Program-made: the position numbers and the translations under genes
Shown here: in pieces, positions 23,834 to 39,910 of the stretch
Numbering within the stretch: position 1 is the stretch's first letter
Layout of the letters: the number at the start of each line of letters is the position of its first letter
The notes under the pieces: model-generated
Database searches by the model: none
What the model was told of the DNA's origin: nothing
The model's input: the letters and a program-made list of their open reading frames with translations, nothing else
DNA from: Streptomyces humicola
GTDB taxonomy: Bacteria; Actinomycetota; Actinomycetes; Streptomycetales; Streptomycetaceae
Length of the DNA stretch: 64,000 nt
Direction: 5' to 3'
Assembly: GCF_024436035.1 (NCBI RefSeq)
Contig: NZ_JANFNG010000002.1
Span: 124,001 to 188,000 of the forward strand

Positions 23834-25276
23834 ATGACGCAGACTTCGCCCTCGGCGCAAGAGGCAGCGGCCCAGAACGGGCAGCTGACCAGCCTGAGCA
23901 CCGAGGCAGCAAGGAATCTGGCCCACACGACCAAGTCCGTCCCGCAGATGCAGGGGATCAGCTCCCGCTGGCTGCTGAAGGTCCTGCCCTGGGTGCAGGT
24001 ATCGGGCGGTACCTACCGGGTCAACCGTCGGCTCTCCTACACGGTGGGAGACGGCCGGATCGACTTCGAGGCCACCGGCGCGCAAGTGCGCGTCATCCCC
24101 GACGAGCTGCGTGAGATCCCGTTGCTGCGGGAGTTCACCGACACCGAGACACTCACCGCCCTGGCGGGCAGGTTCGAGCAGCGCGAGGTCGTTGCAGGGG
24201 GTGTCATCGCGGAGGCAGGGCGACCGGCCGACCAGCTGGTGCTGATCGCCCACGGCAAGGTCCGCAAGATCGGCGCCGGGAAGTACGACACCGGGACAGT
24301 CCTGGGCACCCTCGCGGACGGCGACTACTTCGGCGATCGTGCCCTGGCGGCGTCCGACGGTGCCTGGGAGTTCACTGCCACAGCAGCCACCGCGTGCACC
24401 TTGATGATCCTGCCGCGCCCGGAGTACCTGCAGATCATGGAGCGCTTTCCGCACCTACGTCAGCACCTGCAGGAGTACTCCTCCCGGCCGGAGAAGCCGG
24501 TGAACCGAAAAGGTGAGGCCGCCATCGAGCTGGCCTCGGGACACGTCGGCGAACCGATGCTGCCGCAGACGTTCGTCGACTACGAGTCGCAGCCGCGCGA
24601 GTACCCGCTCAGCGTCGCCCAAACCCAGCTGCGCGTCCACAGCCGCGTCGCCGACCTGTACAACGAGCCGATGAACCAGCTCGAACAGCAGCTGAAGCTG
24701 ACCATCGAGGCACTGCGCGAGCGCCAAGAGCACGAACTGGTCAACAACCGGGAGTTCGGCCTGTTGCACAACGCCGAGTTCAAGCAACGCATCCACACGC
24801 GCGGCGGCCCGCCCACCCCGGACGACATGGACGAGCTGCTGTCCTTGCGGCGCAAGACGCGCTGCTTCCTCGCGCACCCGAAGGCGATCGCCGCGTTCAT
24901 GCGGGAGTGCTCCCGCCGCGGGATCTACCCCATCGGCATCGAGTTCAACGACCACCACGTGCCCGCCTGGCGCGGCGTTCCGCTGCTGCCGTGCAACAAG
25001 ATCCCGGTCTCCGACTCGCTCACCACCTCGATCATCGCGATGCGTACCGGCGAGGAGGACCAGGGCGTCATCGGCCTGCACCAGACCGGCATCCCGGACG
25101 AGTACGAACCCAGCCTCAACGTCCGTTTCATGGGCATCGACGAGAAGGCGATCATCTCCTACCTGGTCAGCGCCTACTACTCCCAAGCGGTCCTGGTTCC
25201 CGACGCCCTCGGCATTCTGGAGAACGTCGAGCTCGGCCACTACGAGACCAACCACGCCCCTCCCACGGCGAGCTGA
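23834..25276 (+). CDS. Family 2B encapsulin nanocompartment shell protein
   Basis: 480 residues, standard for family 2B shells. It self-assembles into an HK97-fold cage that packages a terpene cyclase. Residues ~1-85 form the N-terminal arm ([40 protein letters not shown]). Residues ~95-205 are an inserted cyclic-nucleotide-binding-like domain ([38 protein letters not shown]). The remainder is HK97-like ([80 protein letters not shown]). The next two genes make and cyclise 2-methyl-GPP, the known cargo pathway. The ATG has only a weak ribosome site (GAGAACGG). Confidence 0.93.
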
Positions 25277-25321: not shown

Positions 25322-26200
25322 ATGACCATGACCACGACCACGACCCTGCCCGCACCCGCTGCCGCTGACGTGCTGCGCACCGACTACCAGCGGTCCGTCG
25401 CCGCCTACTGGAACACTGAGCAGTCCCCGGTCAACCTGCGGCTCGGCGACGTCGACGGCCTCTACCACCACCACTACGGCATCGGAGAGGTCGACCCGTC
25501 CGTCCTCAAGGGGCCGCGGGACACGCGCGATGAACGCATCATCACCGAGCTGCATCGGTTGGAGACCGCCCAGGCCGACCTGCTCTTGGACCACCTCGGC
25601 GACATCGCCTCCACCGACCGGCTGTTGGACGCCGGATCCGGCCGCGGCGGCACCAGTTTCATGGCCCACCAGCGTTTCGGATGTCGAGTGGACGGAGTGA
25701 GCATCTCCGAATCCCAGGTCGCGTTCGCCAACGACCAGGCCACCGAACGCGGCGTCACCGACCAGGTGCGGTTCCACTTTCGCAACATGCTCGACACCGG
25801 CCTCGAGACCGGGTCCCGCCGCGGCATCTGGACCAACGAGACGACCATGTACGTCGACCTGTTCCAGCTCTTCGGCGAGTTCTCCCGGCTGCTTCCGTTC
25901 GGTGGCCGCTACGTGTGCATCACCGGCTGCTACAACGACGTCACCGGCGGCCGTTCCAAGGCCGTCGCCCGCATCGACGAGCATTACACCTGCAACATCC
26001 ACTCCCGCAGCGCCTACTTCAAGGCGATGGCGGACAACAACCTCATCCCCATCAATGTCATCGACCTGACACCAGCGACCATTCCCTACTGGGAACTGCG
26101 CGCGAAGTCCCCGGTCGCCACCGGCATCGAGGAACCCTTCCTCACCGCATACCGCGAAGGCAGCTTCCACTACCTGCTCATCGCCGCCGACCGTATCTGA
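25322..26200 (+). CDS. Geranyl diphosphate 2-C-methyltransferase
   Basis: 292 residues. It methylates geranyl diphosphate at C2 with S-adenosylmethionine to give 2-methyl-GPP, the substrate of 2-methylisoborneol synthase. The SAM fold shows TDRLLDAGSGRGGTSFMAHQ (motif I, ~residue 100) and VDGVSISESQVAFANDQATE; family-specific stretches are YHHHYGIGEVD, WTNETTMYVDLFQLFGEFSR, GGRYVCITGCYNDVTGG and LRAKSPVATGIEEPFLTAYR. ATG 25322 follows AAGGACACC; a second ATG six bases on is possible. It starts 45 bases after the shell gene and ends in a strong terminator. Confidence 0.93.
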   Translation: MTMTTTTTLPAPAAADVLRTDYQRSVAAYWNTEQSPVNLRLGDVDGLYHHHYGIGEVDPSVLKGPRDTRDERIITELHRLETAQADLLLDHLGDIASTDRLLDAGSGRGGTSFMAHQRFGCRVDGVSISESQVAFANDQATERGVTDQVRFHFRNMLDTGLETGSRRGIWTNETTMYVDLFQLFGEFSRLLPFGGRYVCITGCYNDVTGGRSKAVARIDEHYTCNIHSRSAYFKAMADNNLIPINVIDLTPATIPYWELRAKSPVATGIEEPFLTAYREGSFHYLLIAADRI

Positions 26201-26210
26201 ACGCCTCGGA

Positions 26211-26248
26211 CGGGCCTGCCGCCGCTGCCGGCAGCGGCGGCAGGCCCG
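26211..26248 (+). terminator. Long perfect palindrome, transcription terminator
   Basis: A 38-base perfect dyad (arms begin CGGGCCTGCCGCCGCTGCC) starts ten bases after the methyltransferase stop. It should separate the shell-methyltransferase transcript from the cyclase gene unless readthrough occurs. Confidence 0.75.
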
Positions 26249-26300
26249 TAGCGGCGCAGCGGGCCATTCGGCCGCTGAATGCGGCCGGCGACGGCACCCC

Positions 26301-26448
26301 GACCGCCATCGCCGTGCCCAGGGGACAGAACGAAGAAGAAGGAGTGGCCGGTGGGCACCGGTCCGGCATCCGCGACGAAGGCGAGTCCAGCGTGAACGTT
26401 CGCTTCATGGGTTTCATGTGTACTGACGACAGCGCGATCACGCGCTGC
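26301..26448 (+). pseudogene. Fragment of a second encapsulin shell gene
   Basis: The frame reads AIAVPRGQNEEEGVAGGHRS then GIRDEGESSVNVRFMGF and DDSAI. It aligns with the intact shell's [33 protein letters not shown] and EKAI, i.e. about 45 residues near its C-terminus. Nucleotide identity is visible too (for example the stretch encoding VNVRFMG). The flanks carry no further shell homology, so most of the gene is lost. Family 2B loci often hold two shell genes, which suits this reading. Confidence 0.7.
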
Positions 26449-26543
26449 CCGGCTACGGCCTCCTGCCCGGCGGCCGGTCACCTCCCCGGCGCCGTCGGGC
26501 TGCCGGGGCGCGTCCGAGCCGGTGCCGAGGGGAGCTGACGGCC

Positions 26544-27632
26544 ATGGTCTCCCGCATCCCCCAGGGGCCGACCGGCCTGGGCACCTCCGGCCTGATCATC
26601 ACCGGGGGCCAGCGCCCGGCGCACGCCGCGGAGCAGCCGGTACGGCCCATCCCCGGCCTCCACTACCATCCCGCCGTCCAGCCGGACCCCGCTGTGGTGG
26701 CGGAGGTGGACCGGCGCGCCAACCAGTGGGCCCAGCAGCTCGACCTGGTCCCGCCCGAGTGGGAGGACCAGTTCGAAGGATTCGGCTTCGGCCGCGCGGT
26801 GTGCCTGTGCCACCCCGACCACGCCGACCTCGAACGCCTGATGGTCGCCGCCCGGCTGCTCGTGGCGGAGAACGTCGTGGACGACTGCTACTGCGAAGAC
26901 CACGGCGGCTCCCCCGAGGGCCTGGGCGCCCGCCTGGTGATCGCCCACTCCGCACTCGACCCGTTCCACTCCGCCCCCGAATGCGAGACCGCCTGGCGTG
27001 AGGGCCTCGACGCGGACGCGCCGCTGCGCGGCTACCGCTCCGCCATGGAGCACGCCCTGCCGTGCGCCACTGACGCCCAGGCCGACCGACTCCGCCACGA
27101 CCTCGCCCGGCTCCACCTCGGCTACCTGGGCGAAGCAGCCTGGAGCCTGGACGGCGTCACCCCGGCCGTGTGGGAATACCTGGTGATGCGTCAGTTCAAC
27201 AACTTCCGCCCCTGCCTGACCCTCACCGACCTGGTCGCCGGCTACGAGCTGCCGGCCCCCCTGCAGACCCTCCCCGCCGTGCAGCGCCTCACCGCCCTCG
27301 CCGGCAACGCTGCCACCCTGGTCAACGACCTGTACTCATACACCAAGGAACGGCGCGCCAAGCGCCCGCACCTGAACCTGCCGACCGTCCTCGCACGCCG
27401 CGAAGGACTGACCGAGCGCGACGCCTACCTGAAAGCCGTCGAGGTCCACAACACGATCATGCATGCCTTCGAAACCGAAGGCGAACGCCTGCAGTCCCAA
27501 ATCCCCGACCCCATCCTGGCCCGCTACCTGACCGGCCTGGCCTCCTGGGTCTCCGGCAACCACGAGTGGCACGCCACCAACACCTACCGCTACACCCTGC
27601 CCGACTACTGGCTCTCACAGACAGCATCATGA
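26544..27632 (+). CDS. 2-methylisoborneol synthase (terpene cyclase, encapsulin cargo)
   Basis: 362 residues; many homologs are ~440 because of a longer disordered N-terminus. It cyclises 2-methyl-GPP to 2-methylisoborneol. Catalytic motifs: the aspartate-rich DDCYCEDHGGSPEGLGARL (~residue 112) and the NSE motif NDLYSYTKE (~260). Other family marks are YRSAMEHALPCATDAQADRL, YLVMRQFNNFRPC and AYLKAVEVHNTIMHAFE. The short N-terminal arm carries PTGLGTS (residues 9-15), also present in the geosmin synthase here, a possible shell-loading element (inference). ATG follows GGGGAGCTGACGGCC. A strong terminator and a shell-gene fragment lie between it and the methyltransferase. Confidence 0.92.
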   Translation: MVSRIPQGPTGLGTSGLIITGGQRPAHAAEQPVRPIPGLHYHPAVQPDPAVVAEVDRRANQWAQQLDLVPPEWEDQFEGFGFGRAVCLCHPDHADLERLMVAARLLVAENVVDDCYCEDHGGSPEGLGARLVIAHSALDPFHSAPECETAWREGLDADAPLRGYRSAMEHALPCATDAQADRLRHDLARLHLGYLGEAAWSLDGVTPAVWEYLVMRQFNNFRPCLTLTDLVAGYELPAPLQTLPAVQRLTALAGNAATLVNDLYSYTKERRAKRPHLNLPTVLARREGLTERDAYLKAVEVHNTIMHAFETEGERLQSQIPDPILARYLTGLASWVSGNHEWHATNTYRYTLPDYWLSQTAS

Positions 27633-27730: not shown

Positions 27731-28441
27731 TCAGGTGCAGCAGTCGCAGCCGGGTTGGCAGCCGCACGCATCGGCGGCGGCGTCCGTTCCGGTCGCCGCG
27801 GGCGGGATGGTGCAGCAGGTGTCCCCGCGCCAGGCATTGCGGCCTTCCTTTACGGCGACGGCGGCGATGGCCAAGGCCGCAATGGGATCGGCCCAGGACC
27901 AGCCCAGCAGCAGGTTGGCGAGCAACCCGGCCAGGAGCACGGCCGACAGGTAGGTGCACAGCAGGGTCTGCCTGGAGTCGGCCACGGCAGACGCGGAACC
28001 GAGGTCGCGGCCGTCACGGCGCTGTGCGGCAGACAGCACCGGCATGACGGCTAGGGAGAGGGTGGCTAGGACGATGCCCGGCAGCGAGTGCCCGGCCTCG
28101 CCGGTCCCCGCGAGGACACGGACGGCGTCGATAGCGACGTAGGCGGCGAGCGCGAAGAACGAGAAGGCGACGATCCGTAGCGCGGTCTTCTCCCGGGCAT
28201 CCCGAACGGCATGGTCGGTCGCGGAGAACTGCCAGGCGACAGCGGCGGCGGAGGCGACCTCGATGACGGAGTCGAGGCCGAAGCCGATCAAGGCGGTGGA
28301 GGAGGAGGCGGTGCCCGCCGCTATGGCGACGACCGCCTCGATAACGTTGTAGGTGATGGTGGCGGCCACCAGCAGTCGTATGCGCCGGGTGAGGGCGTCC
28401 CGGCGGGCAGCAACCCGGTCGAGGGACATGGAGGCGGCCAT
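27731..28441 (-). CDS. Cation transporter, CDF-like, with Cys-rich tail
   Basis: 236 residues, about six membrane helices: LVAATITYNVIEAVVAIAAG, ALIGFGLDSVIEVASAAAVA (with the transmembrane Asp typical of CDF metal sites), IVAFSFFALAAYVAIDAVRV, GIVLATLSLAVMPVLSAAQR, LCTYLSAVLLAGLLANLLLG and DPIAALAIAAVAVKEGRNAW. The tail ends CCTIPPAATG ... ACGCQPGCDCCT with seven cysteines, suggesting soft-metal binding. No large cytoplasmic C-terminal domain is present. Its ATG overlaps the stop of the upstream CmtR-like repressor gene, so repressor and pump are co-expressed. Likely exports Cd, Pb or Zn (inferred from the sensor). Confidence 0.82.
   Translation of the reverse strand: MAASMSLDRVAARRDALTRRIRLLVAATITYNVIEAVVAIAAGTASSSTALIGFGLDSVIEVASAAAVAWQFSATDHAVRDAREKTALRIVAFSFFALAAYVAIDAVRVLAGTGEAGHSLPGIVLATLSLAVMPVLSAAQRRDGRDLGSASAVADSRQTLLCTYLSAVLLAGLLANLLLGWSWADPIAALAIAAVAVKEGRNAWRGDTCCTIPPAATGTDAAADACGCQPGCDCCT

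Positions 28442-37209: not shown

Positions 37210-39910
<2,701 letters not shown>

Follow-up and report, generated by a model that had tools for sequence, protein, structure and literature searches.

A decayed shell-gene end between the methyltransferase and terpene cyclase genes of a 2-methylisoborneol-type encapsulin locus in Streptomyces humicola

The spacer of 343 nt between the methyltransferase (MT) and terpene cyclase (TC) genes of a 2-methylisoborneol (2-MIB)-type cluster contains the decayed 3' end of a second family 2B encapsulin shell gene, here called the stub. The stub is dead and encodes no working shell. On balance, we think it probable that it derives from a foreign shell gene whose end arrived together with the cyclase. 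The cluster lies in the 64-kb stretch of Streptomyces humicola DNA that was analyzed (the window), and its order is shell-MT-hairpin-stub-cyclase (Table 1).

Table 1. Features of the cluster, with positions in the window
Feature	Position	Strand	Basis
Family 2B encapsulin shell gene, intact, 480 aa, cNMP-binding insert	23834..25276	+	NF041163, 773 bits; PF19307 and PF00027
Geranyl diphosphate 2-C-methyltransferase gene, class A	25322..26200	+	NF041943, 534 bits (cut-off 400); MT tree
Perfect palindrome of 40 nt (18-bp stem, 4-nt loop)	26210..26249		Terminator-like, no T run
Decayed 3' end of a family 2B shell gene (stub), residue 392 to stop	26284..26538	+	One open frame
Terpene cyclase gene, 2-MIB-synthase type, 362 aa, class B lineage	26544..27632	+	NF041167, 437.6 bits (cut-off 400)

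The locus combines a geranyl diphosphate (GPP) 2-C-methyltransferase, 75 to 84% identical to its best relatives, with a cyclase that carries the motif GPTGLGT at residues 8 to 14 of its N terminus, and such motifs have a proposed role in shell loading (PMC8346489). From these marks of a 2-MIB-type encapsulin locus, the cluster is predicted to be of the earthy-odor, 2-methylisoborneol type. No second intact shell was detected by tblastn in the 64-kb window, and beyond the known genes and the stub there was no further significant shell or MT match in it. A lost class A cyclase between the shell and MT genes was considered and rejected, as just 45 nt lie there. A geosmin-synthase-like two-domain cyclase of an encapsulin cargo type is located about 10 kb downstream, at 37267-39489 on the minus strand, with no adjoining shell gene; it scores 1181 bits against NF041168, slightly under the cut-off of 1200.

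Homology and decay of the stub

When the window was searched by tblastn with the intact shell, the shell itself and one other significant place were returned, at 26290-26523 (E 1.3e-8; shell residues 394 to 468), and the following match reached only E 0.09. By blastp, spacer and window shell shared 31 of 80 identities over residues 392 to 468 of 480 (26284-26523), and a search of the organism's own 7.07-Mb genome with the shell matched the same place at E 2.1e-6. The 112-residue spacer frame scored 26.8 bits against Pfam PF19307 (SrpI-like; gathering cut-off, 22.8), the match covering only positions 182 to 246 of 254, and the NCBIfam model encap_f2b (NF041163) matched at E 1.2e-5 with 24.6 bits, far under its 400-bit cut-off. 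An HMM of 172 shells, the window shell left out, matched the stub at E 4e-8 (HMM positions 396 to 464). In a piecewise test of the profile of these 172 shells against all six-frame placements in the window, with the intact shell counted among the placements, the stub core ranked 2nd of 92,541, the C-terminal tail 5th of 93,695, and the piece past the insertion 13th of 110,985. The weakest part, at 126th of 98,533, was the initial 19 residues. Open frames arise easily in GC-rich spacers, but a chance resemblance is refuted by these significance tests of different kinds (tblastn and blastp, genome search, piecewise profile, Pfam, and HMM), and we regard it as exceedingly improbable.

Homology extends from about 26284 to the stop codon at 26536-26538, with one in-frame insertion of 9 nt at about 26416-26424, and the frame ends where a short-tailed shell would end, 5 nt before the cyclase. 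Nothing recognizable as shell residues 301 to 390 was found by a profile scan of the spacer before about 26278, and neither a cNMP-binding insert nor a complete shell domain is present in the stub, which lacks homology before residue 392 or so and any PF00027 match. A sequence-only reading of this DNA had taken the spacer for the remains of a second shell gene and had aligned about 45 of its codons with the C-terminal part of the intact shell; both points are borne out by the blastp alignment, PF19307, and the HMM. The interval it gave, 26301-26448, lies within the homology but is too short. A DNA search with the spacer in 394 genomes gave, among the matches listed, a full-length match in the own genome only. 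Although 389 of the 394 genomes matched at E <= 0.01, this tally is uninformative because many of the matches are short and GC-rich; five stronger matches that were traced (in genomes G222, G194, G232, G157, and G073) all lie inside shell genes.

The stub departs from the shells at 11 of the 18 columns that are at least 98% conserved, and none of 173 intact shells does so at more than 2. Against the window shell, it differs at 28 first, 32 second, and 36 third positions of 77 codons (0.36, 0.42, and 0.47), compared with means of 0.19, 0.11, and 0.33 differences per codon and maxima of 0.29, 0.20, and 0.57 in 171 intact shells. Second-position GC is 0.64 in the stub versus at most 0.49 in the 171 intact shells, and GC3 is 0.81 to 0.84 versus about 0.90. 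The ratio of first and second to third positions, 0.83 for the stub, is not decisive alone because at least one intact shell exceeds it (maximum, 1.07). The absolute first- and second-position values are decisive for decay.

A stub that is still translated in frame, as a shell-derived peptide or for translational coupling to the cyclase, would account for the single open frame without a frameshift, the insertion being of 9 nt and the stop falling 5 nt before the cyclase start. The lack of a frameshift over about 80 codons is indeed unexpected for old neutral decay, a point that is tempered by shuffled spacers, 18% of which keep a frame open over 112 codons at this composition. The codon-position differences and second-position GC outside the range of intact shells, the lowered GC3, and the loss of near-invariant residues all speak against translation, as does the position of AAGGAG at 26338-26343, which abuts the in-frame GTG at 26344 with zero spacing. 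We therefore consider a translated stub very improbable. A possible ribosome-binding site of the cyclase is a GAGGGGAG stretch close to the end of the frame, at 26527-26534, which stops 9 nt short of the ATG.

Ancestry of the shell, methyltransferase, and cyclase

The loci compared were 80 named ones, the best 80 of 570 relatives, supplemented by loci from searches of 61 relatives and 394 family genomes. A single further genome of the same genus, G001, was among these, and its cluster (L101/L149) is a different one. Among the loci compared, the usual order in cyclase-MT clusters is shell-cyclase-MT, with exceptions at L043 and L110 to L114. In the shell tree, the window shell belongs to a lineage of shell-cyclaseA-methyltransferaseA loci, joining L005 and L021 (support, 1.0), both of which have the order shell-cyclaseA-MT. 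The MT tree places the window MT in class A (support, 0.99), in an inner group with L005, L021, L075, L157, and L164 (support, 0.82). The cyclase groups with that of G126 (78%) and then G194 (64%) inside the class B clade, with supports of 0.94, 0.99, and 1.0 in one TC tree and of 0.91 and 0.93 in another. As judged from these trees, the cluster is of mosaic ancestry, with shell and MT from one lineage and the cyclase from another.

Under strict limits, the cyclase was matched in 218 of the 394 genomes and the MT in 79. Shell and MT without a cyclase between them were seen at 7 loci. In genomes G222, G232, G170, and G174, shell-MT and a lone class B cyclase occupy separate sites (L194, L196, L203, L217, and L274 to L277), no shell or MT match being found near those lone cyclases in 14-kb regions, and since four genomes show it the split is a real arrangement. 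The lone cyclases of these four genomes form a clade of their own (support, 1.0). No further close cyclase was found in the genus of G126, where one of 35 genomes matched at E <= 1e-145, namely, G126 itself; the best cyclase match in plasmids was 64.6%. None of the genomes searched held an unbroken donor or an intermediate.

We placed 77 residues of the stub by likelihood on all 173 branches of an 88-taxon tree, which comprised 63 shells of the terpene-cluster classes, both of the genome's own shells included, and 25 taken at random from the other 110. The best placements were with L186 and with the L096/L097/L116 group. Joining the stub to the window shell lowered the lnL by 4.06 units and joining it to the other own shell by 5.73, and a KH test rejected neither the window shell (p 0.139) nor the other placements discussed here. 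As a control for long-branch effects, copies of the window-shell piece were decayed in simulation to the same identity, and none of 36 reached a preference of 4.06 (maximum, 1.7). A simple identity test (best other-shell identity minus window-shell identity) gave P 0.10, leaving a decayed own copy unrejected. In raw identity over the 77 residues, L099 leads with 33, followed by L186 with 32 and by the window shell and seven others with 31, so that just two of 173 shells exceed the window shell; L116 has 26. By class means, class B shells share 17.7 of 53 residues with the stub versus 21.6 for class A shells.

At L116 (= L143), a shell lies directly upstream of the G194 cyclase in the arrangement stop, 3 nt, ATG, and the window has stop, 5 nt, ATG. 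Because cyclase start codons are uncertain, stop-to-start spacing is weak evidence, and the distance between the shell stop and cyclase residue 35 was used instead. This distance is 107 nt in the window, 102 nt in G194 (L143), and 89 nt in L280, compared with 346 to 1003 nt in the other 36 of 38 complete-shell loci. L097, which belongs to the preferred placement group, has a shell with 81% identity to that of L280; L279, which also has an L097-type shell, is widely spaced (1003 nt). Past its aligned part, the stub has a tail of 4 residues, AEGS, comparable to AQGD in L116 and APRS in several class A shells and unlike the 12-residue tail of the window shell. Tails of 4 residues occur in 53 of 173 shells. 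Together, placement, spacing, and tail point more to a shell-cyclase fragment from elsewhere than to a copy of the window's own shell.

The palindrome sits directly after the MT stop. Perfect stems of 12 bp or more follow 8 of the 34 other class A MTs, no farther than 80 nt from the stop (the window copy being left out of both counts). The hairpin was not called by a scan for terminators with a T tail; a promoter/terminator scan found no promoter and one terminator-like site, at 27825-27842 downstream of the cyclase, with 1.3 expected by chance. The hairpin is consistent with a shell-MT unit whose end lay at this point until the stub and cyclase arrived.

Origin of the stub

We propose that the donor had a shell gene directly upstream of its cyclase, as in related loci, and that a fragment consisting of the end of that shell gene and its cyclase would have been joined downstream of a separate shell-MT unit, behind the terminator-like hairpin. 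The shell part, having no function, would have decayed, and its last codons may persist through serving as the cyclase leader. Support for a joined fragment comes from gene order, mosaic trees, placement, spacing, tail, hairpin, the shell-MT units without a cyclase, and the recurrent decay of shells. Against it, the placement rests on 77 decayed residues and the KH test rejects none of the placements discussed, the shells L096, L097, and L116 are divergent in their own right, the G194 shell does not stand out in raw identity, the class means put the stub nearer to class A than to class B shells, L279 is widely spaced, the frame is open without a frameshift, the searches turned up neither donor nor intermediate, and no shell is found within 9 kb upstream of the closest cyclase relative, in G126.

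A true two-shell operon of the order shell-MT-shell2-cyclase, from which the second shell was deleted save for its 3' end, is what the sequence-only reading had proposed. Two-shell 2B operons are common, as described in section 2.1 of PMC12407261 (503 systems, 21%), and two flanking shell-like (cnb) genes are described for 2-MIB loci in PMC3072421. Placements in two-shell classes begin just 1.98 lnL units below the best, in a tree with only 25 shells of non-terpene class, and L075, whose MT groups with that of the window, has a second shell directly after its MT. However, the gene past that second shell is a polyprenyl transferase, as in a TC/PT-type locus, and the two L075 shells are little like the stub (mean, 18.5 of 53). 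The full row at L075:2092-9374 is shell, two-domain cyclase, MT, second shell, and polyprenyl transferase. A hairpin separates MT and stub in the window, and the nearest shell relatives, L005 and L021, have one shell, none other being found in their 21-kb loci among the loci compared. According to PMC12407261, the two shells generally cluster together, and in two cyanobacterial 2-MIB loci in PMC3072421 the second shell-like gene follows the cyclase rather than preceding it. A joined shell-cyclase fragment fits better than deletion, given the mosaic ancestry, the hairpin, the compact stub-cyclase spacing, and the placement tests, and we judge the deletion unlikely, if still worth weighing. What stands of the idea that two shells were once present is the remains of a second shell gene; it does not follow that there were ever two complete shells here. 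Nothing supports the accompanying suggestion of a switch from hetero- to homo-assembly: L005 and L021 have no second shell, and the genome has another complete shell.

This other complete 2B shell (C22:368455-369840; 68%) lies 220 kb away and is accompanied by a downstream polyprenyl transferase of an encapsulin cargo type (L004:10380-13769); it groups with the L035 and L052 shells in the shell tree. Because of it, the genome still encodes two complete shells even if the cluster lost one. Two-component 2B operons are defined in PMC12407261 by a pair of shell genes within 10 kb, each at least 400 aa long, and within that distance the window locus has its one intact shell.

If the whole cluster had been duplicated in tandem and had then lost one cyclase, one shell, and one MT, the stub would be a copy of the window's own shell, and a shell remnant would be predicted precisely between MT and TC. 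The window shell, tied with seven others, stands behind just two of 173 shells in identity to the stub, and neither the identity test nor the KH test rejects such a copy. In contrast, no simulation matched the observed placement preference, the tails differ (4 versus 12 residues), and the cyclase lineage is unlike that of the shell and MT. A decayed own-shell copy is thus disfavored by the placement simulation, though not by the identity or KH test, and we hold the duplication to be improbable.

Returning to the joined fragment, its arrival may amount to a natural cargo swap, in which a foreign cyclase settled beside the shell and MT of another lineage, lost its own shell, and is now packaged by the shell already present, leaving the stub as a scar. 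We put this forward tentatively, at slightly less than an even chance. The standing shell could package the foreign cyclase because both lineages use a GPTGLGT-type loading motif, and the intact class A shell would now take up the class B cyclase through this motif.

Shell loss in related loci and known systems

Of 62 other class B cyclase loci, the shell directly upstream is of complete length in 38 and partial in 4 (L230, L231, L232, and L269), and there is none on the same strand in 20, two of which (L152 and L281) have a shell on the opposite strand. These proportions are not unbiased because of how the loci were chosen: the sample consists of the highest-ranking matches and of some loci added on other grounds, L231 and L232 having been included after shorter loci showed shell fragments and L230 for a class A-like MT match. 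L230 has a truncated but well-kept C-terminal shell part (residues 341 to 485; 70% identical), and L231 and L269 have scattered shell fragments. When the 172-shell HMM was run in all three sense frames on as much as 2.5 kb of DNA upstream of the 20 cyclases without a same-strand shell, nothing was found at E <= 1. Loss of a shell is plausible, since PMC6428758 reports that 2-MIB does not require the shell protein EshA and Streptomyces scabiei is described in PMC3072421 as being without the cnb gene. At the cyclase start, a loose GPTGLGT-type pattern was present in 12 of the 13 loci without a shell, in all 4 with a partial shell, and in 31 of the 36 with an intact shell, the five misses among the intact loci being variants such as GPKGLGT; the strict pattern was seen in 7 of 44 class B cyclases, and the window cyclase has the strict form.

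The eshA-mibA-mibB operons of Streptomyces encode a shell, a 2-MIB synthase, and a methyltransferase (PMC6428758). The window likewise has a family 2B shell, a cyclase with a GPTGLGT-type motif, and a GPP methyltransferase, but its order is shell-MT-stub-cyclase, its cyclase is of another lineage, and a dead shell 3' end precedes that cyclase. As in the shell-less 2-MIB loci, that of S. scabiei as described in PMC3072421 and the 20 of 62 class B loci, the shell upstream of the window cyclase has been lost; unlike in those loci, a shell of another lineage stands intact in the window cluster, and a piece of the lost shell can still be seen. Traces of two shell genes recall two-component 2B operons such as Sl-Enc1/Sl-Enc2 (PMC12407261). 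Unlike that system, the window has one intact shell, the stub stands directly before the cyclase with its best placement outside the two-shell classes, and the genome's other complete shell belongs to a distant prenyltransferase locus, 220 kb off. In the titles and abstract openings searched, a scope outside which most subscription journals fall, we found no report of decayed shell genes in 2-MIB loci.

The stub is a modest evolutionary footprint, and the locus serves as a sequence-level example of reshuffling in odor-terpene encapsulin loci, in which shells are lost repeatedly beside the 2-MIB-type cyclase and cyclases change shell lineages with the loading motif kept. If the swap is true, the pairing of a class A shell with a class B cyclase would be a natural test of how permissive cargo loading is in family 2B encapsulins.
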